From a virus, in the IMG/VR virus record IMGVR_UViG_3300024346_007222, positions 1 through 58,675 of that record: 58,675 bases of DNA; one strand, written 5' to 3'. Under the pieces are notes generated by a model. It saw only the letters and a list, made by a program, of their open reading frames with translations, was not told the DNA's origin and made no database searches. Each line of letters starts with the position of its first letter. Position 1 is the stretch's first letter. A program made the position numbers and the translations under genes. This document shows positions 20,774 through 41,684 of this stretch, one piece after another.

Positions 20774-20797
20774 TATATATATATAAAACAACACAAG

Positions 20798-21763: not shown

Positions 21764-21767
21764 AAAT

Positions 21768-24932: not shown

Positions 24933-27900
24933 ATGAATGAACTAAGTCAATATCTTGTCAATCAAATTTTATTAGAAGAAACTGAATTACGCAATTTTGT
25001 TGTAGTATATTCTGGTAGATTCCAACCTTTTCATAAAGGTCATTACGCAACTTATCAAAATCTTTGTAAGAAATTTGGTAAGGACAAAGTGTTTATTGGA
25101 ACATCTAATAAAACTGACAATCAAAAATCTCCATTTAATTTTAAGGAAAAGAAAATAATCATGACTAAAATGTTTGGTATTCCATCAAACAAAATAGTTG
25201 AGATTAAAAATCCTTATGCACCAACTGAAATCTTAAAAAACTTTGATGAAACTACAACTGGTTATATAAGTGTTGTTGGTGAAAAAGATGAAATGAGATT
25301 AGGTGGAAAGTATTTTGAGAAATATAAAGGTAAGATAGAACAAGGATATAAGGAAAAAGGTTATGTGTATGTTTCACCCTCGCAATCAAACCCAATATCA
25401 GGTACTAATGTACGAAATTGGTTGAGTAAAGGGGATGAAGAACAACAAAGGGCTGGATTCTTAAAAGCATATCCAAAGTTTGATGAAAAAATATTCAAAC
25501 TAATTACTCTTAAACTTAAAACTATGAGTGAAGGAATGCCAGGTGGAACGGGTATCGGATTGTCGTTTCCAAACGGAACAATTAATGGTGCACCGAAACC
25601 TGAAGATGTGAAAAAGATGCGTAAGAAGTTAGATGATGAAGATGAGGTAAACGAAGAGATTAAATTAGATGTTAATATTGGTGATACCATATTAATGGGT
25701 AAATTTAAAAATAAAAAAACAGTAGTTAAGACGATTGGTAAAGATGAACATGGAATGCCAACGATTAATGGTAAAAAAGTGGCTACATTTAGAATTCTAC
25801 CAAAACAAAATATTTTTAAAGAGGCGGCAACTGTTTCCGGTGGTGATGATTCACAACCTGATGGTGGATATCTACCAAAAGGTAAAGCAAGAGTATTAGG
25901 TGGTGATGATGGGGTTAATAGTAGTGATGATTGGTTTGTTAGAGGAGGATATACCCAAACTGATTTTCCAAAAGCAGATGCAATATATGCAGCAGATGAT
26001 GAAAACCAAATAACATTTAAGATTAAATCAAAAAACAACGCAAGAAGTTTGAATAAACCAACCACTTACCCACTTGGGTTTGATGATATTGATGTCACTC
26101 AAGAAATTGAAAAAATTGAAAAGGCAGAAAAGAGATTGAAAAAGAAAACAAAACAAAAAGATTCTATTTCAGAATTAATAACTGATTACTCTGATTTATT
26201 AGATTCATTATTTGAATCAGATGGCGAAGATGATAAATATGTGCATGTAGGAAATGGCAAGTATAAAGAAAAAACTAAAAAAGATGTAGATGGTGCACCA
26301 TTATTCAAAAAAGATGATAATGGTAAATATAGTCCAATTAAAGGAGATGACGAGGGTGGGGCTGATAAACCGGTTGGTCAAGCAATACAAGGTGCCGATA
26401 TGTTTAAACACGATAAAAGTGTTAAACAACCAAATGATTCTGATAAAGATTTTAAAGCACAAGCAGATAAAGCACAGTCAGATTTTAAAGCACAATCTGA
26501 TAAAGCAAAAAGTGATTTTAAAACACAATCAGATAAAGCACAAGCAGATTTTAAAGCACAAGCAGGTGATAATGTTCAAAAAGCTAAAGCCAAAGGATAT
26601 GATTTTTATAAATTATCTTTAGATGATAAAGAATTAAAAGCAGAAGAAGATAAAGAAAGACAAGCGGTTGCAGATGCAAAAGAAAAGGGAGATGACAAGG
26701 GAGTAGCAGCAAATACATTAAAATATATTCAAACACGAATTGCTAAAGCTAAAAAAGCTGGAGATAAAGAATCGGAACAAATGTGGTCCGATGATTATAC
26801 TAATAAAAGAAAAGATTACGAATCTCAATATGGTAAACCAGAAGATGAATTTGATTTAAAAAATACAAAATCAGAACCAAAAAACCCAAAAGAGGCATCG
26901 ACCGAAGTAGCAAATAAATTAAAGAATAGAAAAACAAAAAATGGTGAAGAATTAGATATTGATGTAACCCCAAATGGTTCATTGATTATTGGAGTTGAGC
27001 ATGGGAAAAGAAAGAAAAGTAATAAACAAACAATAGAACAAATAAAAACTTTACCTAAAGATACAAAAGTAATGTTTGTAGGTGAAGGTGGTATGAGTAA
27101 AGATAAGAATGGTAATATTGAGTTTGCTGGAGAACAAGATGAAATCAGAAATGCTGTAAAAGGACATTTTAATAATTCAGAAGAAAGTAGTTGGGATGAA
27201 AATGCAGACGTATTGGATGATAAATCACCTGTATTTGATGAAGTAGCAAAGGTATTAGGTGGAAGTAAATCTAAAGCTAAAGCAGCATTGTGGTCAAATA
27301 TGTATGGACAAGATGGTCCTGATGAAAATATGTCACCTGAAGATTATTTAGATGATGAAGGTAAAGCGTGGTTAGTAGACCAGGCACAAAAAGGAGGAGT
27401 AACATCAATAACTAAGGATACGGATTTTAATAATTTATCAGATGAACAAAAAGATGATTTGTATCAATTAAATTATAGAGATGATGATGGGTATGGTGAA
27501 ACTGAAATAAGTAAAGCACAAGAAGAATATAATGGATTTCGTCAAAGGGAATTAGATAGAAAAATAAAAGAGGCAGAGGATAACGGATATACAGTAATTG
27601 CACCCGTTGGTAATTCGCACGTTGATATGCGTAGACAACGAACCAAAAAGAAAGATGCAGAAGATGCTCCAAAGGTGGATGTAAATAAAAATGCACCAAT
27701 TGCTCTCCAAAAAATTAAAGATGGTGTAAAGAATTGGAGTGTGCAAGAAAAAGAATTTTTTACAAAAAAAGTACACAAAGGTAACTCACCGGAACGAAGA
27801 AGTTTTGCGGAAGCGGTTAAACATAAAGCTAAAGGTGCGTTGGAAGCAATTAAACATGGTGCCAAACACGAAGTTCATTTGTTTAAAGAAGCCGGTAGTG

Positions 27901-30338
27901 GGGTTAAAAACTTTTTTAGTGGTAAAGAGGTATCAAAAGAAGAAAAGAAAGCACTAATTGGAGTTGCTAAAAAAGTTGCATTAGCAGCAGCATTTGGTGC
28001 AGCTGGAGGTGGATTGGCGCATGGAGCTTTTGCTTTTGGTAAACACGTAATGATGGAATTTATTCCTCACGTAGTTGTTGAAACTCTTGCAGTAGGTGCG
28101 GGTAAAGCAGCACTATTTGCAGGAGAGGAAGAACCAGATGCGGATATGTTAAAATTCATAGATATCATAAGTAAGAAATTAGAAAGTGCAAAAATACCAA
28201 ATGATGTAATGGCTTCTGCAATAGAATCGTTTAATTCTAATAAAGATGAAAAGGGTGATATTAAAGAAAATTATTACTATGATGGAACAGTTGATAATTA
28301 CGCAGATTGGGCAAGAACCCATCCGAGAAAATACGATAATAAGAAAGCTAATTTTAAAGTAAAAGATTCAGGTCAAGATGATTTAGAGGAAATAGCGGTA
28401 CAAATTGATAATATACCTAGTGAACCATTAACCGAAGTTAAAAAAGAAAGTGTTGTAAATTACTACAAAGAAATTTGTAAAGATTTAAAGATAAAACCTA
28501 TTGCAGTTAAATTCGGTTCAGTTGGTCACGCAGGTGCAGCAACTACATTTGATTCTAACACATTTATACCAGAATACATTACTTTTGATTTGAGTAAGGT
28601 TACTGATATAGAAAGGGCAATATTACACGAGATAACACATCAAATACTTTTAGTGAAACAACAAAATCCATTCCATAATTGTCATAAGAGTGCAGGATTT
28701 AAAAAAGTAGAAAATAAATTAATAGATAAATACTTTTATTCATCACAGAGTGCAGTATTAAGAGAAAGAGTTAAAGTTGAAATGGCTAAGACTGATATGG
28801 ATTCAGTTGAAAAATATGCCGATTCACAAATGAGTCCAACTGATGTTGATTTAGGAAAAGAAACTGACCATTTCTTTCAAAGGTTAAACGACCCACGAAA
28901 TGGTAAAGAAATATCACCTGCAGAATTAACAGGTTTATTCAAAAGATTGGCTAGAAACAAAAAGAAATTTTTAGAGTTCCTAAAACAATATAAAGAGTTT
29001 GTAGTTAAAGATAGAGTATCGAATATTAATATAGCATTTATTAAAGTGGCTGATAGATTAATTGCTAAGACGGTAATGAGAAAAGCTGATTTCAAATCAT
29101 CTACTCCTGTATTTACAACCGAATCCCTAATAATGGAAGGTGGTGCATATGGACATATGAATCATCCATTTGATACTGAAATCAATTTAACCTTTGGCCA
29201 ACTTAAAGATATTGTAAATCGTGCATTGGATGGTAACTTAGAATTTGCTAGAGAGAAAACTGATGGTCAAGCCTTGGCTATAAGTTGGATAGATGGTAGA
29301 TTAGTAGCAGCAAGAAACAAATCACATTTGAAAAACAAAGGTGCTGGGGCGTTAGATATCAACGGAGTAGCAGATAAGTTTGCGGGTAGAGGTGAATTAA
29401 CCGATGCCTATAACTTCGCTATGAAAGACCTATCTAACGCCATAAAATCATTATCCCAAGCACAAAAAGATAAAGTATTTAAGAATGGTTCATGTTTTAT
29501 GAACATAGAGGTGATATATCCTACCTCAGTCAACGTTATTCCTTACGGTCAACCACTATTAGTATTTCACGGAACAATGGAATACGATGAGAATGGTGAT
29601 GCGATAGGGGAATCAGCAGAAGCAGGTAGAGTATTGGGTGGAATGCTTAAACAAGTAAACGCCGATGTTCAATCAAAGTATACACTGCAAGGGCCACCGG
29701 TATTAAAGTTACCAAAATCACAAGACCTATCATCTAAGAAAGGTAAGTATCTTGCTATGATATCTAAATTGCAAAAAGAATTTGGATTAGGAGATACCGC
29801 AGGTGTTGCTAATTACCATCAAGCATGGTGGGAGAACTTCGTAGATAAGAAATCACCAACTACATTAGATAACGCCACTAAAATGGGGTTAGTTAAGAGA
29901 TGGGCGTTTGTTGAAAAGGGATTCCGTATTGATAAGAACTCAATTAAGGATGAAAAGACCCTTGCATGGGCTACCAAAATAGATAAGGAAGACCATAAGG
30001 GTATTTCAAAAGATAATTTAATGAAATTTGAAGATATTTTCTTAGGAGTTGGTGCAGATGTATTGGAATTTACCGCATCGGTATTAACAGTTAACCCAGA
30101 TTCTGCTCTTAGGGATATGAAGAAACGTTTAGAACAAACTATAAAGGATGTTCAGGCAAGTGGAGACCCTAAAAAGATAGATAAACTAAAATTAGAACTT
30201 AAAAGATTAAATGCAATTGGTGGTGCTAAAAGAATTGTACCAATCGAAGGAATTGTATTTGTATATAACGGACAAACATTCAAATTAACAGGAGCGTTCG
30301 CTTCTCTCAATCAATTATTAGGTATTTTTTACGCATAA
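24933..30338 (+). CDS. Giant multidomain protein: HxGH nucleotidyltransferase, HExxH zincin, and DNA/RNA-ligase-like domain
   Basis: This is an 1801-residue protein. Residues 1-16 look like a capsid-targeting leader (MNELSQYLVNQILLEE). Residues ~21-195 form a cytidylyltransferase/NMNAT-like domain: VVYSGRFQPFHKGH with H34-x-x-H37, and ISGTNVR (155-161) as the ISSTxxR equivalent. A long charged region includes DFKAQ(S/A)DKAQ repeats (~505-550). Around 1010-1070 is an Ala/Gly-rich hydrophobic stretch (VAKKVALAAAFGAAGGGLAHGAF). H1232-E-I-T-H1236, with H1251 in CHKSAGF, is a SprT/WLM-like zinc protease site. Residues ~1403-1801 resemble ATP-dependent ligases: K1442-T-D-G1445 (motif I), NIE1526 (III), E1772-G-I-V-F (IV), K1784 (V). 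It directly precedes terminase and portal genes, so packaging and injection in the manner of T4 Alt is proposed. Confidence 0.8.
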   Translation: MNELSQYLVNQILLEETELRNFVVVYSGRFQPFHKGHYATYQNLCKKFGKDKVFIGTSNKTDNQKSPFNFKEKKIIMTKMFGIPSNKIVEIKNPYAPTEILKNFDETTTGYISVVGEKDEMRLGGKYFEKYKGKIEQGYKEKGYVYVSPSQSNPISGTNVRNWLSKGDEEQQRAGFLKAYPKFDEKIFKLITLKLKTMSEGMPGGTGIGLSFPNGTINGAPKPEDVKKMRKKLDDEDEVNEEIKLDVNIGDTILMGKFKNKKTVVKTIGKDEHGMPTINGKKVATFRILPKQNIFKEAATVSGGDDSQPDGGYLPKGKARVLGGDDGVNSSDDWFVRGGYTQTDFPKADAIYAADDENQITFKIKSKNNARSLNKPTTYPLGFDDIDVTQEIEKIEKAEKRLKKKTKQKDSISELITDYSDLLDSLFESDGEDDKYVHVGNGKYKEKTKKDVDGAPLFKKDDNGKYSPIKGDDEGGADKPVGQAIQGADMFKHDKSVKQPNDSDKDFKAQADKAQSDFKAQSDKAKSDFKTQSDKAQADFKAQAGDNVQKAKAKGYDFYKLSLDDKELKAEEDKERQAVADAKEKGDDKGVAANTLKYIQTRIAKAKKAGDKESEQMWSDDYTNKRKDYESQYGKPEDEFDLKNTKSEPKNPKEASTEVANKLKNRKTKNGEELDIDVTPNGSLIIGVEHGKRKKSNKQTIEQIKTLPKDTKVMFVGEGGMSKDKNGNIEFAGEQDEIRNAVKGHFNNSEESSWDENADVLDDKSPVFDEVAKVLGGSKSKAKAALWSNMYGQDGPDENMSPEDYLDDEGKAWLVDQAQKGGVTSITKDTDFNNLSDEQKDDLYQLNYRDDDGYGETEISKAQEEYNGFRQRELDRKIKEAEDNGYTVIAPVGNSHVDMRRQRTKKKDAEDAPKVDVNKNAPIALQKIKDGVKNWSVQEKEFFTKKVHKGNSPERRSFAEAVKHKAKGALEAIKHGAKHEVHLFKEAGSGVKNFFSGKEVSKEEKKALIGVAKKVALAAAFGAAGGGLAHGAFAFGKHVMMEFIPHVVVETLAVGAGKAALFAGEEEPDADMLKFIDIISKKLESAKIPNDVMASAIESFNSNKDEKGDIKENYYYDGTVDNYADWARTHPRKYDNKKANFKVKDSGQDDLEEIAVQIDNIPSEPLTEVKKESVVNYYKEICKDLKIKPIAVKFGSVGHAGAATTFDSNTFIPEYITFDLSKVTDIERAILHEITHQILLVKQQNPFHNCHKSAGFKKVENKLIDKYFYSSQSAVLRERVKVEMAKTDMDSVEKYADSQMSPTDVDLGKETDHFFQRLNDPRNGKEISPAELTGLFKRLARNKKKFLEFLKQYKEFVVKDRVSNINIAFIKVADRLIAKTVMRKADFKSSTPVFTTESLIMEGGAYGHMNHPFDTEINLTFGQLKDIVNRALDGNLEFAREKTDGQALAISWIDGRLVAARNKSHLKNKGAGALDINGVADKFAGRGELTDAYNFAMKDLSNAIKSLSQAQKDKVFKNGSCFMNIEVIYPTSVNVIPYGQPLLVFHGTMEYDENGDAIGESAEAGRVLGGMLKQVNADVQSKYTLQGPPVLKLPKSQDLSSKKGKYLAMISKLQKEFGLGDTAGVANYHQAWWENFVDKKSPTTLDNATKMGLVKRWAFVEKGFRIDKNSIKDEKTLAWATKIDKEDHKGISKDNLMKFEDIFLGVGADVLEFTASVLTVNPDSALRDMKKRLEQTIKDVQASGDPKKIDKLKLELKRLNAIGGAKRIVPIEGIVFVYNGQTFKLTGAFASLNQLLGIFYA

Positions 30339-30351
30339 TTTATTTTATATA

Positions 30352-30359
30352 TACTTATA
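30352..30359 (+). promoter_or_regulatory. TACTTATA variant promoter-like element
   Basis: A one-base variant of the recurrent octamer within TATATATACTTATATATG, 32 bases upstream of the gene at 30392. The same C variant occurs at 48011-48018. Confidence 0.4.
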
Positions 30360-30391
30360 TATGTATTAAAATAAAAACCTAATATAGAATA

Positions 30392-31051
30392 ATGGCAAAG
30401 GAATTTAACAAAAAGTTTATGCATCCAACTCGTAGGAAGTTGGTGGATATGGTTATGACAGGTGGTGAATATGCTAAAAGCACCACAGTTGGATGGGAAA
30501 CCGCTAACGTAGAACGACAGGTTGGTGATGTTTGGGAAGATGAACATCATAGATATGAGAAAAAAGAAGGATTCACAATGAAAACCTCAAAAAACTCTGA
30601 AGCATTTGACGAAATCAGAAAATATATAGCAGAATTAGAAAGATGTTCTAATCCAGATTGCACTACAATAAAGATTAATAGTAATCACAAGAAAGTTATT
30701 AAAAAAACTGGATATTGTATCAATTGTTTAGCTGAAAGAGAACATAAAGTACGAGTTGCAGGAGTATGGGAACAATATGAGGATTATAAAATATACACTC
30801 GTATGATAATCGATGGTAAAATAAAATTAGAAGAACTTCAACAAGCACACGATGATGTGAAACCTTATTATGAATATATTAATGAGGATGGAACTACGGA
30901 AAAATGGGAATTACCCAATTCAGTAGAGGAAACCCAAAAAGAAATAATGGAAATCATTACAAATGGTAAGGAGGAGTTGCAAAAAATAGAAGAGTTCCGT
31001 AATAAAGCGTTCGAAATTTTAAAAGAACATAATTGTGAACATTACGTTTAA
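30392..31051 (+). CDS. Hypothetical zinc-ribbon protein upstream of terminase; possible small terminase
   Basis: This is a 219-residue protein. Four cysteines, CSNPDC (~85-90) and CINC (~108-111), form a likely zinc ribbon. The N-terminus is basic (KEFNKKFMHPTRRKL), and the C-terminal 40 residues form a charged helix. It stands 12 bases before the large terminase, where T4-like phages often carry the small subunit (gp16). I cannot match its sequence to known small terminases, so that role is positional inference only. Confidence 0.62.
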   Translation: MAKEFNKKFMHPTRRKLVDMVMTGGEYAKSTTVGWETANVERQVGDVWEDEHHRYEKKEGFTMKTSKNSEAFDEIRKYIAELERCSNPDCTTIKINSNHKKVIKKTGYCINCLAEREHKVRVAGVWEQYEDYKIYTRMIIDGKIKLEELQQAHDDVKPYYEYINEDGTTEKWELPNSVEETQKEIMEIITNGKEELQKIEEFRNKAFEILKEHNCEHYV

Positions 31052-31063
31052 TACAAAACAATA

Positions 31064-32647
31064 ATGGCAGGAACTTCTTTAAAAGATATAATAAAATTAG
31101 AATACCAAAAGTGTGCAGGTGACCCCGTATACTTTATGAAGAAGTATTGCATGATTCAACACCCGGTTAGGGGTAAGATACCTTTTCATTTATATCCATT
31201 TCAGGAAAACACCCTAACCCAATTCAAAGATAATCGATATAACATCATTTTGAAATCTCGCCAGACGGGTATCTCAACTCTAACTGCAGGATTTGCGTTA
31301 TGGAAGATGTTATTTAATCAGGACTTCAACGTATTAGTAATTGCAACGAAACAAGAGGTTGCAAAAAACTTAGTAACTAAAGTAAGGGTAATGAATCAAT
31401 ACTTACCGAGTTGGTTAAAACAAACAACAGTCGAAGATAATAAATTATCCCTTAGATACTCAAATGGTTCACAAATTAAAGCAACTTCTGCAGCATCTGA
31501 TGCTGGACGTTCTGAAGCCTTATCCCTTTTAGTATTTGATGAGGCGGCATTCATTGATAACATTGAAGATATATGGGTATCTGCACAATCTACTCTATCA
31601 ACGGGTGGTAACGCAATTATTCTTTCTACTCCTAATGGTGTGGGTAATTTCTTTCATAGAACATGGGTTAGTGCAGAGGACGGAACTAATGGATTCAATA
31701 CAATCCGTTTACATTGGACGGTACATCCAGAAAGAGACCAAATTTGGAGAGATGAACAGCAAATACTTTTAGGAGCAAAGGGTGCAGCACAGGAATGTGA
31801 TTGTGATTTCGTATCATCAGGTGATAGTGTCATAGACCCACAACTTCTAATGTTTTATAGGGAAACTTTTGTACAAGAACCATTAGAAAAAACTGGCTTT
31901 GATGGAAATCTTTGGAAATGGGAATATCCCGATTATCAAAAATCATATATGGTTGTTGCGGACGTTGCACGTGGAGATTCTACGGATTACTCCGCCGCAC
32001 AAGTGATTGATATTGTTAATTCGGTACAAGTAGCAGAATACAAAGGAAAATTAGATACAAAAGATTTTGGAAATTTCTTAGTTTCCTTAGCAACCGATTA
32101 CAACGAAGCACTTTTAGTAATAGAGAACGCAAATATTGGTTGGGCAGTTATCCAACAGGTAATTGATAGGGGATATAAAAACTTATTCTATATGAGTAAG
32201 GATTTAAAGTATGTAGATGTTGAACATCAAATGCATAATAAATTTAGGGCGGAAGAAAGGGGTATGGTTGCAGGATTTTCAACAACCTCTAAAACAAGAC
32301 CTCTAATTATTTCAAAATTGGATGATTATTTCAGAGAGAAATCTATCACCATACGTTCTAATAGGTTGATAGAGGAGCTTTTTACCTTTATATGGAATAA
32401 TAATCGTGCGGAAGCAATGAGGGGATACAACGATGACTTAGTGATGGCGTTATCAATTGCTCTATGGGTGAGAGATACCGCATTGAGATTAAGACAGGAA
32501 GGAATTGATTTAACTATCAAATCATTAGGTGGAATTCAACAACAAGTACAAGAATCTGGCTTCTATGGCGGTAGTTCAATGGATGATAATCCGTGGTCAA
32601 TGAAAGTGGGTAATCAAGACGAAGATTTGACTTGGTTGATTAAATAA
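31064..32647 (+). CDS. Terminase large subunit (gp17-like)
   Basis: This is a 527-residue protein. The N-terminal ATPase has Walker A ILKSRQTGIST (K64-T72), Walker B LLVFDEAAF (D159-E160) and coupling motif ILSTP (187-191). The C-terminal RNase-H-like nuclease has VVADVARGDSTDYSAA with the first catalytic Asp, LLVIENANIG with a Glu, and YNDDLVMALSIALW with the last Asp residues. Size and motif order fit T4 gp17. It is the motor that cuts concatemers and packages DNA into the prohead through the portal encoded just downstream. Confidence 0.97.
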   Translation: MAGTSLKDIIKLEYQKCAGDPVYFMKKYCMIQHPVRGKIPFHLYPFQENTLTQFKDNRYNIILKSRQTGISTLTAGFALWKMLFNQDFNVLVIATKQEVAKNLVTKVRVMNQYLPSWLKQTTVEDNKLSLRYSNGSQIKATSAASDAGRSEALSLLVFDEAAFIDNIEDIWVSAQSTLSTGGNAIILSTPNGVGNFFHRTWVSAEDGTNGFNTIRLHWTVHPERDQIWRDEQQILLGAKGAAQECDCDFVSSGDSVIDPQLLMFYRETFVQEPLEKTGFDGNLWKWEYPDYQKSYMVVADVARGDSTDYSAAQVIDIVNSVQVAEYKGKLDTKDFGNFLVSLATDYNEALLVIENANIGWAVIQQVIDRGYKNLFYMSKDLKYVDVEHQMHNKFRAEERGMVAGFSTTSKTRPLIISKLDDYFREKSITIRSNRLIEELFTFIWNNNRAEAMRGYNDDLVMALSIALWVRDTALRLRQEGIDLTIKSLGGIQQQVQESGFYGGSSMDDNPWSMKVGNQDEDLTWLIK

Positions 32648-32658
32648 TAAATTCAACA

Positions 32659-32666
32659 TATTTATA
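32659..32666 (+). promoter_or_regulatory. TATTTATA promoter-like element
   Basis: It lies 54 bases upstream of the portal gene start, in the 73-base gap after the terminase. Confidence 0.5.
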
Positions 32667-32720
32667 GTGTATAATAAGATGCACTATTAAATAATATAAT
32701 TTTAATATAAAAAATAAAAT

Positions 32721-34451
32721 ATGGCAGATACTACATTTTTCAATCGGTTAAAAAAACTTTTCTCGACAAAGGCAATTGTTACTGTTGATGCTAGTGGAAA
32801 ACGAAAAGTTTTTGATGCGGATGAAAGACAACAAACAAACCTATCTTCATTAAAAGATAGATACACAAAAATACAAAAATCTTTTTATGAACAAGCGGGT
32901 GGTGCACAATCAATGGCATACGCTCAAGTTCGTAGAGAAGTATTTAGAGATTTCGATGCAATGGACCAAGACCCAATTATAGCATCTGCATTAGATATTT
33001 ACGCTGATGAATCTACCCTTAAAAACGAATTTGGTGATATCATAACAATACGTTCAGATAACCCTCGTGTTCAAGAATTATTAGAAAACCTTTTTTATGA
33101 TATTCTTAATATTGAATTTACTTTATGGCCGTGGGTTCGTAATATGTGTAAATATGGTGATTTCTTTTTAGGACTTGAAATTGCTGAAGGTAAAGGTATA
33201 GTAAACGTTACTCCCCACTCACAATATAATACCGAAAGATTAGAAGGGTTTGACCCGACTAATGCTTCTCTTGTTAAATTCAAAGTACAAGAAGACCCAA
33301 TCGGTAAAGTAGAGTATGATAATTTTGAAATGGCACATTTCCGTTTATTATCTGATACCAACTGGTTACCTTATGGTAAATCAATGATTGAGAATGGCAG
33401 AAGGTTATGGAAACAATTATCTCTAATGGAAGATGCGATGTTAATCCATCGTATTATGAGAGCACCTGAAAAAAGGGTATTCAAAATTGATATTGGTAAT
33501 ATTCCACCTACCGAAGTTGATAACTACATGCAAAAGATTATCAATAAGATGAAAAAAGTTCCATTCTTAGATAAGACAAGCGGTGATTACAATTTAAAGT
33601 ATAATATGCAAAACCTTACGGAAGATTTTTATCTACCGGTAAGAGGTGGTGATAGTGGAACTGCTATTGAAAACTTAGCAGGATTAGAATATGCTTCGAT
33701 TGAAGATATTGATTACCTAAAAGCTAAATTATTTGCTGCATTAAAAATTCCTAAAGCATATTTGGGATATGATGAAAATGTAAATGGTAAAGCAACCCTA
33801 GCAGCAGAAGATGTTCGTTTTGCAAGAACAATTGAAAGAATCCAAAGAACAGTTACCTCAGAATTATCTAAAATAGCAGTTATCCACTTATATGGTAATG
33901 GTATACAAGATTTTGAAATGACTAATTTTGAAATTGGATTAGTTAACCCATCTACAATCTACGAACAAGAGAAAGTAAACCTATGGAGTGAAAAAATCCG
34001 TTTAGCAACTGATATGGCTGCATTGAAGATGTTATCTAAGGATTGGATATATGAAAATATATTTAAATTATCAGAAACCGAACAAACCGAACAAAGAGGC
34101 AAAGTGGTTGAGGACCTAAAGGATGTATTCCGTTACAACTCAATAGAAAACGATGGTAATGACCCTGCAAATCCTCCAAAACCAACCGATGTTGAAGAAA
34201 GTTTGGAAAATCTTAAAACAGAATTGAAAGATAAAGGTGGTAGACCCCGCGAAGGTAATACTTATGGTAAAGACAAGCATCCTTATGGAAGAGACCCATT
34301 GGGTGATGATGAAAGAACTTCAAAGAGAAGTAGAACATCTGAAACAAAAGCAATGAATTATATCAATGGGATTTCATCAAAAAAGAAATATTTACACGAA
34401 ACTAAAGATATGTTAGATGAAACTAATATTATCGATGATACGGAAAATTAA
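32721..34451 (+). CDS. Portal protein (gp20-like)
   Basis: This is a 576-residue protein. The diagnostic T4-type block is EVFRDFDAMDQDPIIASALDIYADEST (~70-97). It is followed by FTLWPWVRNMCKYGDFFLGL, FRLLSDTNWLPYGKSMIENGRRLWKQ, LEYASIEDIDYLKAKLFAALKIPKAYLGY, and FARTIERIQRTVTSEL. The C-terminal ~80 residues are charged and repetitive (GKDKHPYGRDPLGDDERTSK), probably disordered. It forms the dodecameric DNA gate at the capsid vertex and starts head assembly. Length is close to T4 gp20 (524). Confidence 0.97.
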   Translation: MADTTFFNRLKKLFSTKAIVTVDASGKRKVFDADERQQTNLSSLKDRYTKIQKSFYEQAGGAQSMAYAQVRREVFRDFDAMDQDPIIASALDIYADESTLKNEFGDIITIRSDNPRVQELLENLFYDILNIEFTLWPWVRNMCKYGDFFLGLEIAEGKGIVNVTPHSQYNTERLEGFDPTNASLVKFKVQEDPIGKVEYDNFEMAHFRLLSDTNWLPYGKSMIENGRRLWKQLSLMEDAMLIHRIMRAPEKRVFKIDIGNIPPTEVDNYMQKIINKMKKVPFLDKTSGDYNLKYNMQNLTEDFYLPVRGGDSGTAIENLAGLEYASIEDIDYLKAKLFAALKIPKAYLGYDENVNGKATLAAEDVRFARTIERIQRTVTSELSKIAVIHLYGNGIQDFEMTNFEIGLVNPSTIYEQEKVNLWSEKIRLATDMAALKMLSKDWIYENIFKLSETEQTEQRGKVVEDLKDVFRYNSIENDGNDPANPPKPTDVEESLENLKTELKDKGGRPREGNTYGKDKHPYGRDPLGDDERTSKRSRTSETKAMNYINGISSKKKYLHETKDMLDETNIIDDTEN

Positions 34452-34470
34452 TCTAACTTCTAATTTTTTA

Positions 34471-34478
34471 TATTTATA
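34471..34478 (+). promoter_or_regulatory. TATTTATA promoter-like element
   Basis: It is embedded in TTTTTTATATTTATATATAG, 40 bases upstream of the gene at 34519 and just after the portal stop. Confidence 0.45.
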
Positions 34479-34518
34479 TATAGAAATTTGAGTCTATCAA
34501 AATAAGGATTTAAAAACA

Positions 34519-35388
34519 ATGAAAAAAATTAAACATTCGAAATTTAAAAATACTGGGTTTTTATTTGAACTCTTAACTCGTCAAATCACGTTGGAGATTT
34601 TAAATAATGCTCCAGTAGAAAAGGCTAAAAAAATAGTACAAGAATTTTTTGGTGGTAAAACCGAATTAGCAAAGGAATTGCGTTTATTCAATTTACTTAC
34701 AACTGAAAAATATAATTCAGAAAGTAAAGCAGAAAAATTTATTGATGCTATTATCGAAACTCGTACTAAATTAGATGAAACTAAATTATTAAGAGAAAAG
34801 TATAACTTAGTAAAGGCTATTAAAGAAAATTTTGATATTGAAGAATTTGTTGCTTCTCCTGTTTCTAATTATAGAGTATTGGCATCGGTTCATAAGATTT
34901 TTGAAGCAAAGATACAAGATGTAACTAATGTTAAGGATGTATTTGATGCTAAGATTACATTAGTAGAACACGTATCTACCACCCAAACATCTATTAAGAA
35001 GATTGAAGATAAATTAATGGAAACATATAAGAATCAAGAAAAGGATTTGAGATTGTTGACATACAAAATACTAGTTGAAACATTTAATAGTAAATACACT
35101 AACTTAAACGACGACCAAAAAGGTCTTTTAAGAGAATTTATTAATAATGTTAATAATACATCTAAATTCGGTGAATACTACGATTCACAATTAAAGAAAG
35201 TAGTAACTGAACTTCACAAATTACATTCCGAAGTTAATGATAAAATCACAAAAATTAAATTAAAAGAAACTATCAATGTTTTAAAAACACAAAAGATAGG
35301 AAAGAAAATTACGGATGAACAGGTTTCAGCGTTGATGATATCATATGAATTAATAAAGGAAATAACCAATGTCAGAAAAAAATATTAA
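34519..35388 (+). CDS. Conserved hypothetical helical head-region protein
   Basis: This is a 289-residue protein starting MKKIKHSKFKNTGFLFELLTRQIT. It is almost entirely helical and Lys/Glu-rich (KTQKIGKKITDEQVSALMISYELIKEI at the end). No enzymatic motif is seen. Location between portal and protease suggests a prohead core or assembly role, but this is positional. It overlaps the next gene by 20 bases. Confidence 0.7.
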   Translation: MKKIKHSKFKNTGFLFELLTRQITLEILNNAPVEKAKKIVQEFFGGKTELAKELRLFNLLTTEKYNSESKAEKFIDAIIETRTKLDETKLLREKYNLVKAIKENFDIEEFVASPVSNYRVLASVHKIFEAKIQDVTNVKDVFDAKITLVEHVSTTQTSIKKIEDKLMETYKNQEKDLRLLTYKILVETFNSKYTNLNDDQKGLLREFINNVNNTSKFGEYYDSQLKKVVTELHKLHSEVNDKITKIKLKETINVLKTQKIGKKITDEQVSALMISYELIKEITNVRKKY

Positions 35389-36862
35389 ATCTTTTATAGA
35401 CGAACTTATTAAGGAAGTCGAAGATGAATTAGATGAAGCCAATGTGACAGGTAATGTTGATGGCTACGATACTCCTCATGCCTTTTCTGGTAAAAATTCT
35501 GATAAAAAAAGAAAAAAAACTGCAACACAATTCGGTTATACATTAGTAAATAATGATATTAACAATATTGATGAATCTATAAACGAAGATACTAAACGTG
35601 TAAATATATTAGGTATAGATTTTAATATAAGTGAAATGAATGGTAGAATATTCTTTTCTTTTATAGATAAAAAAGCAGCAAGTATTAAAATTAGAGAAAT
35701 AGGAACTAATAAAATAGTAAATCTTATACAAAATAGTTTAGATAAAGCATATGGTAAGGGCGAGTTTTTCTTTAAAGGTGGAGACCATGCTGAATTTCAA
35801 AATGGATATTTATTCCAACGAAGTATTGGTAATATAAAACTTAATAAACTCAAATTTGAATCCATAAACGAAGCATTAAAACATCTTATCCACGTAGAAA
35901 CTCCAACACAAATAGTATCAAAACCAGTGGCAAAACAAATTCTTGCATTAGCTAAGAAAGGTGTTCGTTCATATGAGATTGGACTGAATATGGGATTTGT
36001 AGGTAATCAAAAAGCTGCAGTAGATGCATTTCAAAAAGTTAAGAATAAAATATATTTTGAATTAGATAAAAGAGAAGGTGTTAATGAAGCATTAGACCCT
36101 AAAGCAGAAAAATTCTTAGATGCTATTCAAGTTAATGATAGAAGTATAAAGGATTTAAAGAATATTACTGTCGATGCAACCCCACAAGGTAATTGGTCGG
36201 TTTATTATAAAGGTAAACGTATGTTTACTCTTAATGGTAAGATGTTGGATGATAAAACTATTATGAAATATGGTTTAGAGCATATGGATGAGAGTATTAA
36301 TGAACTAACTAATAACGAAAGGCAAATTAAAAACGGAAATCCGGATAATATATTTTATATATTCTATAAAGGGCAATTTGCAGCAGTTTATTGGGCAATG
36401 AATCCTAGTGATTTGTTTAAGATATATTGGGATGAATTTAAAGTAAGAAGGCCAGCTGGTTCTCAATTCAAATTAAATCCAGAATTTATCATTGTCCCTA
36501 AAAAAGAGTATGATAAGAGTACATCAAATCGTTACGCAAAATTAAAACCATATGTAGATAAGTTTTGGGATAAATTACAAAACGAATCGGTAAACGAAGG
36601 TAAAACACATAAACCAGTAAATCGTTGGTTAGAATTGAAAAATGATGAATCAATGCATGCTAATAAGAAGTTAGCAACTGGTTTGAGAGAATTAAAATAT
36701 CAATTAAAAGAGGTTGAAACTTTTTTCCGTTGGTATAATCAAATTAAGACTATGAATGAATTGAGTTCCGATACATTTTGGAAAAGAACGCACGGACATA
36801 TTTATAAGATAAAGGAACGATTAATCAACATAGCGAAAACAATACAGGAGATAGAAAAATAA
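35369..36862 (+). CDS. Candidate internal head polyprotein with five ES[IV]NE/GVNE sites
   Basis: This is a 497-residue protein. The leader SFIDELIKEVEDELDEANV is amphipathic and acidic, followed by VDGYDTPHAFS and a basic stretch. Putative prohead-protease sites recur: ESINE 69-73, ESINE 164-168, GVNE 237-240, ESINE 308-312, ESVNE 406-410. They divide the protein into modules of about 70-100 residues. Module 169-240 (KPVAKQILALAKKGVRSYEIG) looks like a helix-turn-helix fold. Module 411-497 is helical. T4 gp21 cuts after Glu in (L/I)-x-E contexts, which these resemble. The gene is two genes upstream of the protease. Individual module functions are unknown. Confidence 0.68.
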   Translation: MSEKNIKSFIDELIKEVEDELDEANVTGNVDGYDTPHAFSGKNSDKKRKKTATQFGYTLVNNDINNIDESINEDTKRVNILGIDFNISEMNGRIFFSFIDKKAASIKIREIGTNKIVNLIQNSLDKAYGKGEFFFKGGDHAEFQNGYLFQRSIGNIKLNKLKFESINEALKHLIHVETPTQIVSKPVAKQILALAKKGVRSYEIGLNMGFVGNQKAAVDAFQKVKNKIYFELDKREGVNEALDPKAEKFLDAIQVNDRSIKDLKNITVDATPQGNWSVYYKGKRMFTLNGKMLDDKTIMKYGLEHMDESINELTNNERQIKNGNPDNIFYIFYKGQFAAVYWAMNPSDLFKIYWDEFKVRRPAGSQFKLNPEFIIVPKKEYDKSTSNRYAKLKPYVDKFWDKLQNESVNEGKTHKPVNRWLELKNDESMHANKKLATGLRELKYQLKEVETFFRWYNQIKTMNELSSDTFWKRTHGHIYKIKERLINIAKTIQEIEK

Positions 36863-37578
36863 TGAAAATATCACGTACACGATTAAAAGAAATCATCAAA
36901 GGAGTAATGACTGAAGAAAATGAATATCAGGCATTCTTTCAAAAAGCATTAGATAAAGCTGGAAAATCAATTCCATCTATGTCAGATGAGGAAAAGAAAG
37001 CATTCTTTGATAAAATTGATGCAGCATGGAATGGTAAGGGTGAGAAGAATGAAGAATTAGTGGGTGGCCAAAAGAAATTAGATGTTGATAAAGATGGTGA
37101 TATCGGTAGTGATGATTTAGCAGATTTAAGAGCTGGTAAAAAAGCAAACGAATCAGTAAACGAAGAAGTTAAAGATTGGGATACTATTCATAACGTATTT
37201 GTTAAATTTTTAAAAGCAAACACTAAGGAATTAGAGAAAAGAGTTCTTTCTAAAGACGAAGATGCAACTAAAAAAGCTATCAAATCCATCGTTAGTGGTT
37301 TAACTAATGCACAGAGAAATTTGAAAATGGAATCGGTGAATGAAGGAAAATACGATGCTGATTTAGATAAGATAGAAGCAGCTGTTAAAAAGGCATCTTC
37401 TTTTATGAGTGTTGGTACTGAATTGAAAAAAATAGGTATTAAATATGATTTTACAACATCGATGATGCCAATGTATATGATTAAAGTATCTGGTAATACC
37501 ATTGCTATTGTAAATAAGAAATACGCTACAGATTCGGAAAGAATAGTAGGCGATATTGCAATTGGTTTATTAAACTAA
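36862..37578 (+). CDS. Candidate internal head protein with EF-hand-like loop and two ESVNE sites
   Basis: This is a 238-residue protein. The leader is MKISRTRLKEIIKGVMTEE. Residues 20-65 (EYQAFFQKALDKAGKSIPSM, ending GKGEKNE) form a small helical module. D74-V-D-K-D-G-D-I-G-S-D-D85 fits the 12-residue EF-hand/dockerin calcium loop. ESVNE sites at 97-101 and 157-161 then separate two further modules. The start overlaps the previous stop (TAATG). The ESVNE sites match those of the upstream protein, suggesting shared processing by the prohead protease. Confidence 0.66.
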   Translation: MKISRTRLKEIIKGVMTEENEYQAFFQKALDKAGKSIPSMSDEEKKAFFDKIDAAWNGKGEKNEELVGGQKKLDVDKDGDIGSDDLADLRAGKKANESVNEEVKDWDTIHNVFVKFLKANTKELEKRVLSKDEDATKKAIKSIVSGLTNAQRNLKMESVNEGKYDADLDKIEAAVKKASSFMSVGTELKKIGIKYDFTTSMMPMYMIKVSGNTIAIVNKKYATDSERIVGDIAIGLLN

Positions 37579-37587
37579 ATAATAACA

Positions 37588-37764
37588 ATGACACGAAAAA
37601 GATTGTTAGATATTATTAACGAAGAGATAACCAAAGTAAAATGGGGTATCGTCAAAGAAGAAATCACAACTGAAGATGAAAAACTTATTCGTGATATTAT
37701 TCGTAAAGAAGTATCTGCAATATTTTTTGACCTCTTTAAAAAGAGAAAAACGTGGGGAGCATAA
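37588..37764 (+). CDS. Small helical protein next to the prohead protease
   Basis: ATG at 37588, stop at 37762-37764, 58 residues: MTRKRLLDIINEEITKVKWG, then a second amphipathic helix (LIRDIIRKEVSAIFFDLF) and a basic end. The N-terminus again has an IIxEE leader. The stop overlaps the protease start (TAATG), so the two should be translated together. T4 has small prohead-core proteins (gp67, gp68) just before gp21, so this is a positional candidate for such a core protein. Confidence 0.62.
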   Translation: MTRKRLLDIINEEITKVKWGIVKEEITTEDEKLIRDIIRKEVSAIFFDLFKKRKTWGA

Positions 37765-38363
37765 TGAAAAATTTATTAATAGAAACAACATTATTTGAAG
37801 GAAAATTGAATGAAGATTCAAGTGGTAGAACCTTAGTTAAAGGTATTCTTCAAAGAGCGGTTGCAGAAAACCAAAATGGTCGTATATACCCTAAAGAAAT
37901 CCTAATGCGTGAAGCAAAGAAATACGAAGTTCTTATTAAAGAAAGACGTGCATTAGGGGAATTAGACCATCCAGATTCTGGTATTATCAACTTAAAGAAC
38001 GTTTCTCATAATGTCAAAGAAATTCATTGGGAAGGCGATGACCTTTGTGGGACAGTAGAAATTTTACCAACTCCATCAGGTAACATCTTAAAAGAATTAT
38101 TAAGAGCAGGAATCCTTTTAGGTATTTCATCTCGTGGTATGGGTTCGGTAGTTAATATTGGCGAAGGTAAAGTTAAAGTGGGTGATGATTTTGAACTGAT
38201 TGGTTGGGATTTTGTTTCTAACCCATCTACACATGGTGCATTTATGACACCGGTTACGATGAACGAATCAGTAAATAGACAATTAAAAGAACAAGCTATA
38301 GTTTGTGGTGAGTATTGTAAGGCACAAGACCTTATGAGAGAAATCATTACTGAATTAGCATAA
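37764..38363 (+). CDS. Prohead core protease (gp21-like)
   Basis: This is a 199-residue protein. The catalytic histidine is H69 in GELDHPDS, and the serine is in GISSRGMGS (S122/S123), as in T4 gp21-type herpes-assemblin-like proteases. GRIYPKEILMRE and FVSNPSTHGAF are further family blocks. An in-frame GTG at 37752 would add four residues, but the ATG at 37764 overlaps the preceding stop (TAATG) and gives MKNLLIETTLFEG, a self-leader with likely cleavage sites. The enzyme matures scaffold, capsid and internal proteins after cutting after Glu. Confidence 0.95.
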   Translation: MKNLLIETTLFEGKLNEDSSGRTLVKGILQRAVAENQNGRIYPKEILMREAKKYEVLIKERRALGELDHPDSGIINLKNVSHNVKEIHWEGDDLCGTVEILPTPSGNILKELLRAGILLGISSRGMGSVVNIGEGKVKVGDDFELIGWDFVSNPSTHGAFMTPVTMNESVNRQLKEQAIVCGEYCKAQDLMREIITELA

Positions 38364-38379
38364 ACATAAAGGATAAAAT

Positions 38380-38820
38380 ATGGCATTTTCAATACAAGAT
38401 TATCTAAGAGATAACAAAATAGAAATGGGTAGTATTAAGAAAGAAGTTGGTGATACACCTTTTAAGGGTGGTCATAACGATATTCGTAAGACTAACTATG
38501 AGGTTAAGATTAAAGCAGATGGTAAGTTAGACCTTTATACACATAAAACTGTATTAACTGAAAGTAAAAGGGTAATTAAAGAAGCAGAAAAAATTAAATT
38601 AGGTGAATTGAGTTCTACTAAACAAAAACAAGTTGAAGAACTTCAAAAGCTTTTTGGTGGTAAAATTATTACAATTTGGGATAGTGTACATGGTAATATC
38701 GTTGATATAAAAGTGACAGAAAAAAATGGAAGACTTATTGCATCAGATTTAAAAGATTTAATTGCATTAAAAATACGTTGGATAGAATTTGAAAACCAAA
38801 CGGTCTCAATAGGATTTTAA
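38380..38820 (+). CDS. Hypothetical head-region protein
   Basis: This is a 146-residue protein. The N-terminal half is charged (KTNYEVKIKADGKLDLYTHKTVLTESKRVIKEAEK). The second half is a compact alpha/beta module (KIITIWDSVHGNIVDIKVTEKNGRLIASDL). AAAGGAT upstream gives a modest ribosome site. No family is recognised. The TESKRVIKEAE segment could hold protease sites. It lies between protease and ParB-like genes. Confidence 0.68.
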   Translation: MAFSIQDYLRDNKIEMGSIKKEVGDTPFKGGHNDIRKTNYEVKIKADGKLDLYTHKTVLTESKRVIKEAEKIKLGELSSTKQKQVEELQKLFGGKIITIWDSVHGNIVDIKVTEKNGRLIASDLKDLIALKIRWIEFENQTVSIGF

Positions 38821-38839
38821 AATATAGGAACATCAACTA

Positions 38840-40606
38840 ATGATTAAATTAAATAATTTACTTATTGAAGCAGAAACTTTTACCGCTGTAAATAAAAAGA
38901 CAGGTAAAACATCAATATTTAGGTCAAAAGCCAGTAAAGCTGATGCAATTAAAGCTGGAACACATACTAATCCAGAAGACAAAAAATCAGATAAACCTGA
39001 TACAAAAACTCCAACAGTAAATATTTTTGACAAACCAGCAAAAAATACATCTGCTAAATCAGATAAAAGTGGTGATAAATCATCAACAGAATTTGATACC
39101 CCAAAAATACAATCTACTAAGATTAAAGATATAATGCCTAAGGCAGATAAAAAAACTTTTAATGCACCATCCGATATAAATAAAATATCAGATAGTGATA
39201 AGAGAGAAATTTCTATGAAAATTGATGAGTTAGATAAAATAACTAGTGATGCAAAGGCTAAAGGTGAAGAAGCTCCTAACTATAATTTATGTAAAATAAC
39301 TGTAGCTGGAACAAACTTATATTGTGCTGGTAACGCTGGTATTCCTCGTGAAGAAATGCCACAATTTAAAGGAAAACCAACTCCCGGTTCACCTGCCGAC
39401 AAATTACCTAAAGATGCAAAGGGTGAAGTGGACACTGAACCAATGTTTCAGCAAATGTTAAAGGACGGTAAAATAAAAACAGTAGAAACCGAAATACCAT
39501 CAGATAGATTAAAAGCTACACAATCAGAATTAGTGGGTTCAAAAGTAGCAGGCATGGCCAAAGCTTTAGAAAAAGACCCAAATCATCCTGGTATTACGGC
39601 ACCAATTTATGTAAGTAGAGATGGATATGTAATTGATGGTCATCATAGATGGGCAGCAGTAACATCAGCAGCAATTGCATCAGGTAAACCTGCAAATATG
39701 AAAGTAATTGTAATTGATATGGATATCAAAGATGCAATTCCTATGTGTAATAAATTTGCTGAAGACCAAGGAGTTGCTGCTAAAAAGGCAGATGCTAATC
39801 AAGAAGGGCCTAAAGCGGATAAACCAACATCAGAACCTAAAAAGAAAAGACCAGGTAACCCATCAGTAAATAAAGATGCTAAGAAATTAGCTGAGAAATC
39901 AGGAATTACTCCACAAAAGTTGGGTAATGAAAAATATAAAGAAGCAATGTTTCAAGCAGCAGTTTCTGCATTAACCGATTCAAACTTCCATAGTGAAGCA
40001 AGAGAATTAGTTGCAGCAATTGAAGGAAAACCTGAGTTTGCAAAGAAACCTGAATATCCATCAATTAAAGACCCTAAGTATAAAGAGAAAATGGATGATA
40101 TTCGTAAGAATTCTGCAGATGGTTCGGTTTATATGAACGGAACTGGTGAGATTGATGATTATGGTACGGATGTATCACAAGCATCAGGGTGGGACGGAGT
40201 CGATGCAGCAGATGGTATAGCATTTACATTGAGAATGAATGGTTTCCATAAAGAAGCGGATTTAATTCAGTCAGTATTTGATAATAAACCATATATGAAG
40301 AATGAAGGTAGAATTTCTTTAACTAAAATGGTAAAGGAAGGTAAATTCAAAGAAGACGATTTAGTTTATAATAAAAGAACAAAGACAGTTGGTATTGTAA
40401 GAATGGGTGATGATAAATATGGCGAGGTTAAAACCGATGCAGATGGTAATGTTAATGTTGATGAATTGGAAAAATATAATCCAATAAAGAACAAACACCA
40501 ACAAAATGCAAAAGTTGCACCATCTACTGAAAAGGAAGTGAATAGTAGAGGATTATTTAATCCATTTAAATCAGAATCTATAAAATTAGCAAAATTAGTA
40601 AAATAG
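38840..40606 (+). CDS. Candidate internal head protein with ParB/sulfiredoxin-like domain
   Basis: This is a 588-residue protein. The leader MIKLNNLLIEAET resembles a capsid-targeting sequence with a likely cut after Glu10. FTAVNKKTGKTSIFRSKASK and AIKAGTH follow. Residues ~222-295 match the ParB/Srx fold: SDRLKATQSELVGSKVAGMA, then GITAPIYVSRDGYVIDGHHR (H268-H269-R270) and WAAV. Such domains bind nucleotides or act as nucleases. The rest is Lys/Asp-rich and disordered, plus helical modules (~350-400 and 440-500). Its place between protease and scaffold fits an internal protein, perhaps binding packaged or injected DNA. Confidence 0.72.
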   Translation: MIKLNNLLIEAETFTAVNKKTGKTSIFRSKASKADAIKAGTHTNPEDKKSDKPDTKTPTVNIFDKPAKNTSAKSDKSGDKSSTEFDTPKIQSTKIKDIMPKADKKTFNAPSDINKISDSDKREISMKIDELDKITSDAKAKGEEAPNYNLCKITVAGTNLYCAGNAGIPREEMPQFKGKPTPGSPADKLPKDAKGEVDTEPMFQQMLKDGKIKTVETEIPSDRLKATQSELVGSKVAGMAKALEKDPNHPGITAPIYVSRDGYVIDGHHRWAAVTSAAIASGKPANMKVIVIDMDIKDAIPMCNKFAEDQGVAAKKADANQEGPKADKPTSEPKKKRPGNPSVNKDAKKLAEKSGITPQKLGNEKYKEAMFQAAVSALTDSNFHSEARELVAAIEGKPEFAKKPEYPSIKDPKYKEKMDDIRKNSADGSVYMNGTGEIDDYGTDVSQASGWDGVDAADGIAFTLRMNGFHKEADLIQSVFDNKPYMKNEGRISLTKMVKEGKFKEDDLVYNKRTKTVGIVRMGDDKYGEVKTDADGNVNVDELEKYNPIKNKHQQNAKVAPSTEKEVNSRGLFNPFKSESIKLAKLVK

Positions 40607-40616
40607 GAGATATTAA

Positions 40617-41684
40617 ATGATACGTTTATCAAAGATAGTTAAAGAAGGTGAAGAACCAAAAAGATTTTCTAACGAAGTAAAAAAACATTTCTTAGAAATC
40701 GTTTCTACATACAACAAGTATCAAGAAATGATGGATAGAAAATCAGATATTACTGAGATAGCAGAAACTTTGGGTGGTATTACTGATGCAGCTAGAGAAT
40801 TGGCGGTAAACGAAGCAGATGATTGGTTTGATGCACATACTGTTAAACGTAATATGAATGAATTAACTAAATTAGGTAAATCATTTGACCAAGTTGCAGT
40901 AGAAGCAAAGAATTTAGACCAAAGATTACATGGATTATACGAAGATATGGGTCATATCCTATCTCGTTACTATAAAATAGGTGAAATTTCTGAAGAACAA
41001 ATGAAAGAACGTTTGGGATTGAGAGAAGCGTTAGGTAATGATAAAGCAATGTTAGCATTAGTAGATATGTTATCTAACTCAATGGAACATTACGCTAGTG
41101 CAAATGAATTTGTAAACGTTACCTCTAAGATACCCGGTTTTGCTAATAACAAAGCGGAATTAAGAGATGTATTTACAAAATACTACAAAGTAGGGGCAAG
41201 AGAAAGAAACGATTGGAATACTAAAGATTGGTTGAAGTGGTTAAAACAATGGCCATTGGAAGAATCTAAAACTAATTGTGTTGAATGTGATAAAGTAAAC
41301 GAAAAAAACCCCGGCCTATGGGCTAATATTAACGCAAAAAAAGCTAGAGGTGAGAAATCATCACCTAAAAATTCTCAAGCATATAAAGATGCAGTTGCAG
41401 CAGGTAAGCAAATAAATAAAGAAGCAGCATATGGATATAAAGATTCAACTGCATCATATATTGATAAACATAAAGAAGAATTCAAAGCAGCAGAAAAAAT
41501 GAATAAAGGAAATGAGCAATCATTCTATGATTCACTTTCTACATTAGAAGAAAAATTAGGACATCCTAAGTATATGATATTCTTATCAAATGCTTTGAGA
41601 GGATATAAAGTAGATATGTATAAAGACCCAAAGATTAAAAATCAACAAGAAGCTGAAGAAGCATTGTTCCTTTTAAGCAAATAA
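40617..41684 (+). CDS. Candidate internal head protein with GLWANINAKKARGEK motif
   Basis: This is a 355-residue protein. The leader MIRLSKIVKEGEE matches the last residues of the preceding protein (SIKLAKLVK) and looks like a targeting sequence. LAVNEADDW is another possible protease site. The middle is helical. Residues ~245-280 contain KNPGLWANINAKKARGEK, a basic motif that recurs in phage internal proteins as I recall them. The C-terminal ~75 residues are helical. A clear ribosome site TAGGAGA lies seven bases before the start. Function unknown. Confidence 0.68.
   Translation: MIRLSKIVKEGEEPKRFSNEVKKHFLEIVSTYNKYQEMMDRKSDITEIAETLGGITDAARELAVNEADDWFDAHTVKRNMNELTKLGKSFDQVAVEAKNLDQRLHGLYEDMGHILSRYYKIGEISEEQMKERLGLREALGNDKAMLALVDMLSNSMEHYASANEFVNVTSKIPGFANNKAELRDVFTKYYKVGARERNDWNTKDWLKWLKQWPLEESKTNCVECDKVNEKNPGLWANINAKKARGEKSSPKNSQAYKDAVAAGKQINKEAAYGYKDSTASYIDKHKEEFKAAEKMNKGNEQSFYDSLSTLEEKLGHPKYMIFLSNALRGYKVDMYKDPKIKNQQEAEEALFLLSK

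Follow-up and report, generated by a model that had tools for sequence, protein, structure and literature searches.

Candidate head-packaged polyproteins of a T4-like phage clade: exchangeable modules joined at a conserved protease-type linker

Introduction

In the leader of the phage T4 internal proteins, residues 4 and 7 act in capsid targeting and residues 8 and 10 in processing, and the prohead protease gp21 cuts after L/I-x-E (PMC9026906). The three internal proteins (IPs) of T4 are separately encoded and block different type IV restriction enzymes (PMC12373910). A gp21-related protease also cuts after Glu in the inner-body and ejection proteins of phiKZ, 201phi2-1 and SPN3US (PMC9026906, PMC7411985), where many head proteins are cut at a short motif. 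A further group, the polyvalent proteins, are multidomain and encoded near virion genes, and injection and processing have been predicted for them (Iyer et al. 2017, PMC5512222).

Here we describe a 58,675-base virus contig, analysed over its whole length and called the window below, which carries the head genes of a T4-like myovirus, with a T4-type large terminase, portal, protease and major capsid protein (MCP) in order. Its leader and protease are of the known T4 kind. The likeness to T4 IPI-IPIII and Alt extends to the leader hydrophobics at 4, 7 and 8 and the Glu at 10, which 38840 and 40617 reproduce exactly, to a gp21-type protease with hydrophobic-x-Glu sites, and to cargo that is variable and non-homologous among related phages (PMC9026906, PMC12373910). 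However, each T4 IP is a single protein with a leader of its own, whereas here several modules, which would be packaged together, stand behind a shared leader and are connected by repeated cut-type linkers whose DNA is conserved. The phiKZ, 201phi2-1 and SPN3US proteins differ in their motif (S/A-x-E or A-x-E) and mostly lose long propeptides, rather than forming strings of exchangeable modules. As for the polyvalent proteins, 24933 (NMNAT-like domain, HEITH motif, KTDG module) and the ParB-like 38840 resemble them; but polyvalent proteins have an internal metallopeptidase and known enzymatic domains, whereas the modules of 35369 and 36862 gave no match to a known domain and their cutter is probably the prohead protease. 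The cultured relative Flavobacterium phage vB_FspM_immuto (MW353176), with a 52% identical protease and the same head-gene order, carries MNESVNE, followed by GRVLKG, and ESLNE, followed by DDYLQP, in one 841-aa protein, QQO92109.1 (codons GAATCAGTAAATGAA and GAATCATTAAACGAA); it differs in having few linkers and in encoding the first module alone, as a separate 73-aa protein. A literature search found no phage paper among the 10 of 16 matches listed for the ESVNE linker peptide and no virion proteomics of immuto; among the open-licence papers searched, none described exchangeable modules strung together at a cut-site joint with conserved DNA.

We propose, with a probability of about 0.68, that these genes encode head-packaged polyproteins which the gp21-type protease would cut, and that the linker DNA may double as a recombination joint.

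Results

The head-gene region

The features of the region are collected in Table 1. The initial annotation had named seven genes (24933, 35369, 36862, 37588, 37764, 38840 and 40617) as a family of internal head proteins; all are present with starts as it described, they surround the S77 protease 37764, and the leader-bearing genes share one head cluster with a gp21-type protease. The 43388 protein aligns with annotated MCPs of the two cultured phages whose proteases are closest to that of the window, Microcystis phage Mel-JY01 (56% identity) and Flavobacterium phage immuto (52%). A DNA search found no near-identical DNA among phage records, and a protein search of these records with 35369 and 36862 gave one weak match each, in an unannotated 484-kb record. 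At 16328-22760, ORFs 16328, 20798 and 21768 open with Rossmann-type GxxGxxG motifs, suggesting sugar-nucleotide genes adjoining the head region.

Table 1. Head-gene features of the window, with module borders and putative cut sites
Feature	Position	Strand	Basis
1801-aa polyprotein, leader MNELSQYLVNQILLEE	24933..30338	+	phrog_395 3.8e-13
EVNE border in 24933 (residues 238-241), GAGGTAAACGAA	25644..25655	+	
T4-type large terminase	31064		profile search
T4-type portal	32721		profile search, PF07230 E 5.5e-68
Conserved 289-aa protein between portal and cassette 1, without leader or linker	34519..35388	+	
Cassette protein 1, 497 aa	35369..36862	+	
Linker 1 of 35369, ESINE, GAATCTATAAACGAA	35573..35587	+	
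Linker 2 of 35369, ESINE, GAATCCATAAACGAA	35858..35872	+	
Linker 3 of 35369, GVNE (residues 237-240), degenerate, GGTGTTAATGAA	36077..36088	+	border in relatives
Linker 4 of 35369, ESINE, GAGAGTATTAATGAA	36290..36304	+	
Linker 5 of 35369, ESVNE, GAATCGGTAAACGAA	36584..36598	+	
Cassette protein 2, 238 aa: leader and EYQ..F module, then two modules	36862..37578	+	
First linker of 36862, ESVNE, GAATCAGTAAACGAA (consensus)	37150..37164	+	
Second linker of 36862, ESVNE, GAATCGGTGAATGAA	37330..37344	+	
55-aa ORF starting MTRKRLLDIINEE	37588..37752	+	kept in relatives (59 matches)
gp21-type prohead protease (S77)	37764..38363	+	PF03420 9.4e-27; phrog_207
Putative N-terminal self-cut sites of protease, LLIE/KLNE	37803-37814	+	
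Putative C-terminal self-cut site of protease, TMNE-SVNR	38256-38267	+	flank conservation
588-aa protein, exact T4-register leader MIKLNNLLIE-A, ParB-like domain	38840..40606	+	
Cassette protein 3, 355 aa, exact T4-register leader MIRLSKIVKE-G	40617..41684	+	
KVNE border in 40617 (residues 226-229)	41292-41303	+	recurs in relatives
Acidic scaffold, gp22-like position directly before MCP	42243..43355	+	position and relatives
gp23-type major capsid protein	43388..45016	+	annotated MCP relatives in L120 and L121

The 24933 polyprotein holds an NMNAT-like domain (PF01467, 9.7e-8; NMN adenylyltransferases) and, by motif only, a metalloprotease-like HEITH motif in its middle region and nucleotidyltransferase/ligase-like motifs (KTDG...EGIVF..KLTG) in its C-terminal module; a profile search of the PDB gave no support to the ligase-like reading. 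The related locus L099 encodes this last module separately, in a gene that has a leader of its own. The VNE reported earlier in 24933 lies at a border that recurs in relatives, and the sequence after it, EIKLDVNIGDTILMGKFKNKK, is a module start there. The 40617 protein consists of a conserved core and exchangeable C-terminal modules; of its VNE occurrences, that at the KVNE border falls on a recurring boundary, while that at residues 64-66 is probably no module border because it lies inside the conserved core domain. The ORF 37588, although real and conserved, is without modules. Two further motifs were seen: a DGHHRW motif in the ParB-like domain behind the leader of 38840, whose FTAVNKKTGKTS start recurs in many relatives, and, in the first module of 36862 (36862-37164), DVDKDGDIGSDD, an acidic DxDxD loop that is EF-hand-like.

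ES[IV]NE occurs six times in the proteins of the window, all in 35369 (four) and 36862 (two), against 0.04 in within-protein shuffles. Two occurrences in 36862 had been reported, as found here, and five in 35369; the additional one there is the GVNE of linker 3, yet it too is a border in relatives. Within the seven genes, [IV]NE is seen 11 times against 2.3 expected, and plain [ILV]xE 67 times against 53; the latter is not special to these genes, and the signal thus lies in ES[IV]NE and its placement.

Modules and their exchange

Comparison covered 119 related loci, with breakpoint statistics drawn from 128 ORFs that carry the motif; these clade statistics count related genomes, and the independent set is the 55 flank-free junctions described below. 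The 35369 protein has a conserved first module (1-73), four variable modules and a conserved last module (411-497), and viral contigs encode relatives that align with it in separate segments (1-75, 164-240, 235-312 and 406-497) at 75-95% identity. Homology breakpoints, defined as the ends of local alignments that stop inside both proteins, cluster around S[IVL]NE: 56% of the left ones and 73% of the right ones are no more than 8 residues away from it, compared with 20% of random positions. Across the 119 loci, modules are gained, lost and exchanged between genes, with protein similarity stopping at the motif. Nearly all 35369 orthologs share the first and last modules, with zero to four differing interior modules between them, and Mel-JY01 has a short form of these two modules only. 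The ends of 35369 are 91-100% identical in DNA to those of relatives whose interiors differ; in the two relatives L002 and L008 they are 100% and 99.6%, and 100% and 97.9%, identical to the window, again with a different interior. A third relative, L007, is without the module following linker 4, and the gap begins inside that linker. An interior module of 35369 (residues 169-240) is shared across genes, standing behind at least four different first modules.

The median length of a linker-bounded module is 80 residues (quartiles 69-107), and the modules of 125 loci fall into 83 single-linkage families, a count that is still rising and not saturating. Pfam searches with 81 representative modules gave no convincing match (best E 9.7e-5), and nearly all PHROG matches were to families without a named function. 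In an AlphaFold2 model of 36862 the third module is confident (pLDDT about 85) and the second moderately so, and the second linker (157-161) lies in a dip below 50 between them. The model of 35369 is poor (mean pLDDT 51), with one confident module at 169-234, and it neither supports nor refutes folded beads. Foldseek returned no match at E <=0.001. VIA matches of 36862 and 35369 were distrusted as helical hairpins or weak resemblance, among them the weak resemblance of 36862 residues 162-224 to a TUTase (Z 6.0, 63 residues, 2.3 A).

These data bear on one alternative, that the proteins are a consumable inner-core scaffold like T4 gp67, gp68 and gp22, in which the linkers are cut, the fragments exit before packaging and the modules are only spacers. 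In T4, the core genes 67 and 68 lie between portal and protease. 35369 and 36862 hold the same position, 35369 has a conserved, helical module at either end, and T4 core proteins are cut into many fragments, most of which exit (PMC9026906). Against this, the interior modules are extremely diverse, as the unsaturated family count indicates, some are confidently predicted alpha/beta domains, enzymes (NMNAT-like) bear the same kind of leader, and exchange of this kind would not be required by a scaffold function alone. We consider a pure scaffold unlikely; a mixture, with the conserved end modules as core and the variable modules as cargo, is possible.

The linker as DNA

Two features go beyond the earlier description: the modules behave as cassettes that are shuffled, and the conservation of the linker extends to its DNA. 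At loci found by protein similarity, the linker Ser is TCN in 126/126, Val is GTA in 92/98 and Asn is AAC in 88/126. At the 55 junctions that share neither flank, Asn is AAC in 42 (76%) versus 28% in the flanks (binomial 1e-13). Of the 43 ESVNE junctions in this independent set, 23 carry the exact 15-mer GAATCAGTAAACGAA, against an expectation of about 2. A scan of viral contigs with this 15-mer found at least 79 new loci, 71 in frame; among the 79 listed, 34 ORFs are multi-motif and 46 lie with head genes of this clade, against 1/80 and 6/80 among the matches listed for a synonymous control, GAAAGTGTTAATGAA. The linker is 15 bp long and, in comparison with integron attC, is without an evident inverted repeat.

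It could be argued that ES[IV]NE is a protease site only and plays no part in recombination, with codon choice and common descent accounting for its DNA similarity. Indeed, orthologous linker codons drift nearly as fast as their flanks (0.077 versus 0.122 synonymous differences per codon), and because codons drift between close relatives the linker DNA is not strictly frozen. However, junctions with unrelated flanks have codons far more alike in the linker than in the flank for Val (0.875 versus 0.414) and Ser (0.464 versus 0.301), while Asn codons compared pairwise are not more alike (0.546 versus 0.596); the excess of AAC at flank-free junctions and the breakpoints at the linker between near-identical genomes also speak against it. 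A protease site alone leaves the conservation of linker DNA unexplained, and we regard this account as rather unlikely. Drift between orthologs, together with likeness between unrelated junctions, suggests instead spread or homogenisation of the linker along with the modules. In the reading that we prefer, packaged polyproteins whose linkers are cut, the linker DNA would in addition serve as a recombination joint.

Leaders and cut-type sites

The exact register M..h..hh.E opens 111 of 1629 distinct clade ORFs, 28-fold more than in shuffled N-termini (3.9), and 4 of 848 ORFs at control loci (Fisher 3e-16). A typical clade leader is MIKLKNLLNE, with N or K at position 9 in 71%, and the pattern precedes NMNAT-like, ParB-like and many other proteins. 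The T4-like leaders claimed for this gene family match the 10-residue T4 leader in register in 38840 and 40617, but are longer and off the exact register in 24933, 35369 and 36862; relatives of 24933 (MGELSKFLVESILLEA) do match, and the leaders of 35369 and 36862 count against the preferred reading.

The same module occurs behind either ES[IV]NE or an N-terminal leader in 29 pairs (27 without two self-matches); 25 of these 29 have a leader whose hydrophobic-x-Glu end lies no more than three residues from the junction. Examples are ESVNE|AKFKSPDYI in L003 versus MIKLKDLLNE|VKFKSPDYI in L103, ESVNE|ASLQKGKTYGG versus MIKLKDIINE|VKLQKGKTYGG, and ESVNE|SLIMEGGAYG versus MIRLRKILNE|ILLKEGGAYG. Since at least 25 modules occur behind either one, the linker and the leader end ([LI]NE/KE) look interchangeable. 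Leader Asn codons are AAT in 17 cases and AAC in 15, so that leaders end without the linker DNA motif.

Sites of the same form are found on other head proteins. The protease domain is flanked by [VIL][NKQ]E and [VM]NE, and the propeptide of the MCP 43388 is predicted to be cut after E61 (QLLDE-ATATG); MCP and protease sites thus share the hydrophobic-x-Glu form of the linkers, and an [LI]xE-type form is present in LLIE-A (38840), IVKE-G (40617) and the [IV]NE linkers. Judged from these motifs, one protease cutting leaders, linkers, protease flanks and MCP would be the simplest common cause. As [ILV]xE is free inside modules and not depleted, the specificity of such cutting would have to come from accessibility. 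The NESVN noted near the protease end is there, and relatives keep [VM]NE-SVN[RK]; this tail (38256-38280) is nearly invariant, with R/K replacing the second Glu of the linker motif. We set aside the idea that NESVN[RK] is an uncut decoy, because it is immediately preceded by [VM]NE, a site of the normal form.

The conservation of linker DNA beyond protein needs, together with module shuffling, would also fit a linker that is a recombination joint only, the modules being fused like beads on a string in one uncut protein, in the head or elsewhere. Yet linker and leader ends are equivalent as protein while leaders have no DNA motif, the [LIV]NE form is common to the protease flanks, and the linker fits the T4 rule of L/I-x-E (PMC9026906), which makes an uncut string very unlikely.

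Discussion

The initial annotation had proposed packaged proteins with T4-like leaders and with cut-type sites at the borders of 60-100-residue modules. The leaders and borders are strongly backed by comparison, through breakpoints at the motif, linker/leader interchange, the leader register and the same-form sites on MCP and protease, and comparison adds the shuffling of modules and the conservation of linker DNA; packaging and cutting, as well as injection, a part played by the linker in recombination, and a function in anti-defence or host takeover, are what we infer.

We propose the following mechanism. The products of 24933, 35369, 36862, 38840 and 40617 would be precursors that enter the prohead by means of a T4-type capsid-targeting leader at the N terminus. 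The S77 protease would then remove the leader and cut after Glu at [LIV]NE within the probably flexible ES[IV]NE linkers, thus freeing modules of 50-110 residues, which would be retained in the head until infection and then injected together with the DNA, as precedent in T4 (Alt and IPs) suggests. At the same time, the linker DNA GAATCAGTAAACGAA could act as a short shared homology for in-frame exchange, loss and addition of modules between phages and genes, so that each phage would carry its own set. An anti-defence role of the modules is plausible, as T4 IPs block different type IV restriction enzymes.

A more far-reaching proposal, which we offer tentatively and at somewhat less than even odds, is that of combinatorial cassettes, in which a 15-bp in-frame recombination joint that is also a protease site would let phages assemble changing sets of injected mini-proteins; if true, this would allow quick turnover of an injected anti-defence arsenal. 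A whole T4-like clade seems to string IP-type proteins together and to trade them at one conserved joint. If so, the joint alone would find a large library of uncharacterised, probably injected phage proteins in metagenomes, and it would provide a rule for naming phage-delivered effectors from sequence.

In two contigs of about 288 kb (L122 and L123), linker-bearing genes and a leader-bearing HAD-like protein lie far from the head cluster; the cassettes are thus not confined to that cluster.
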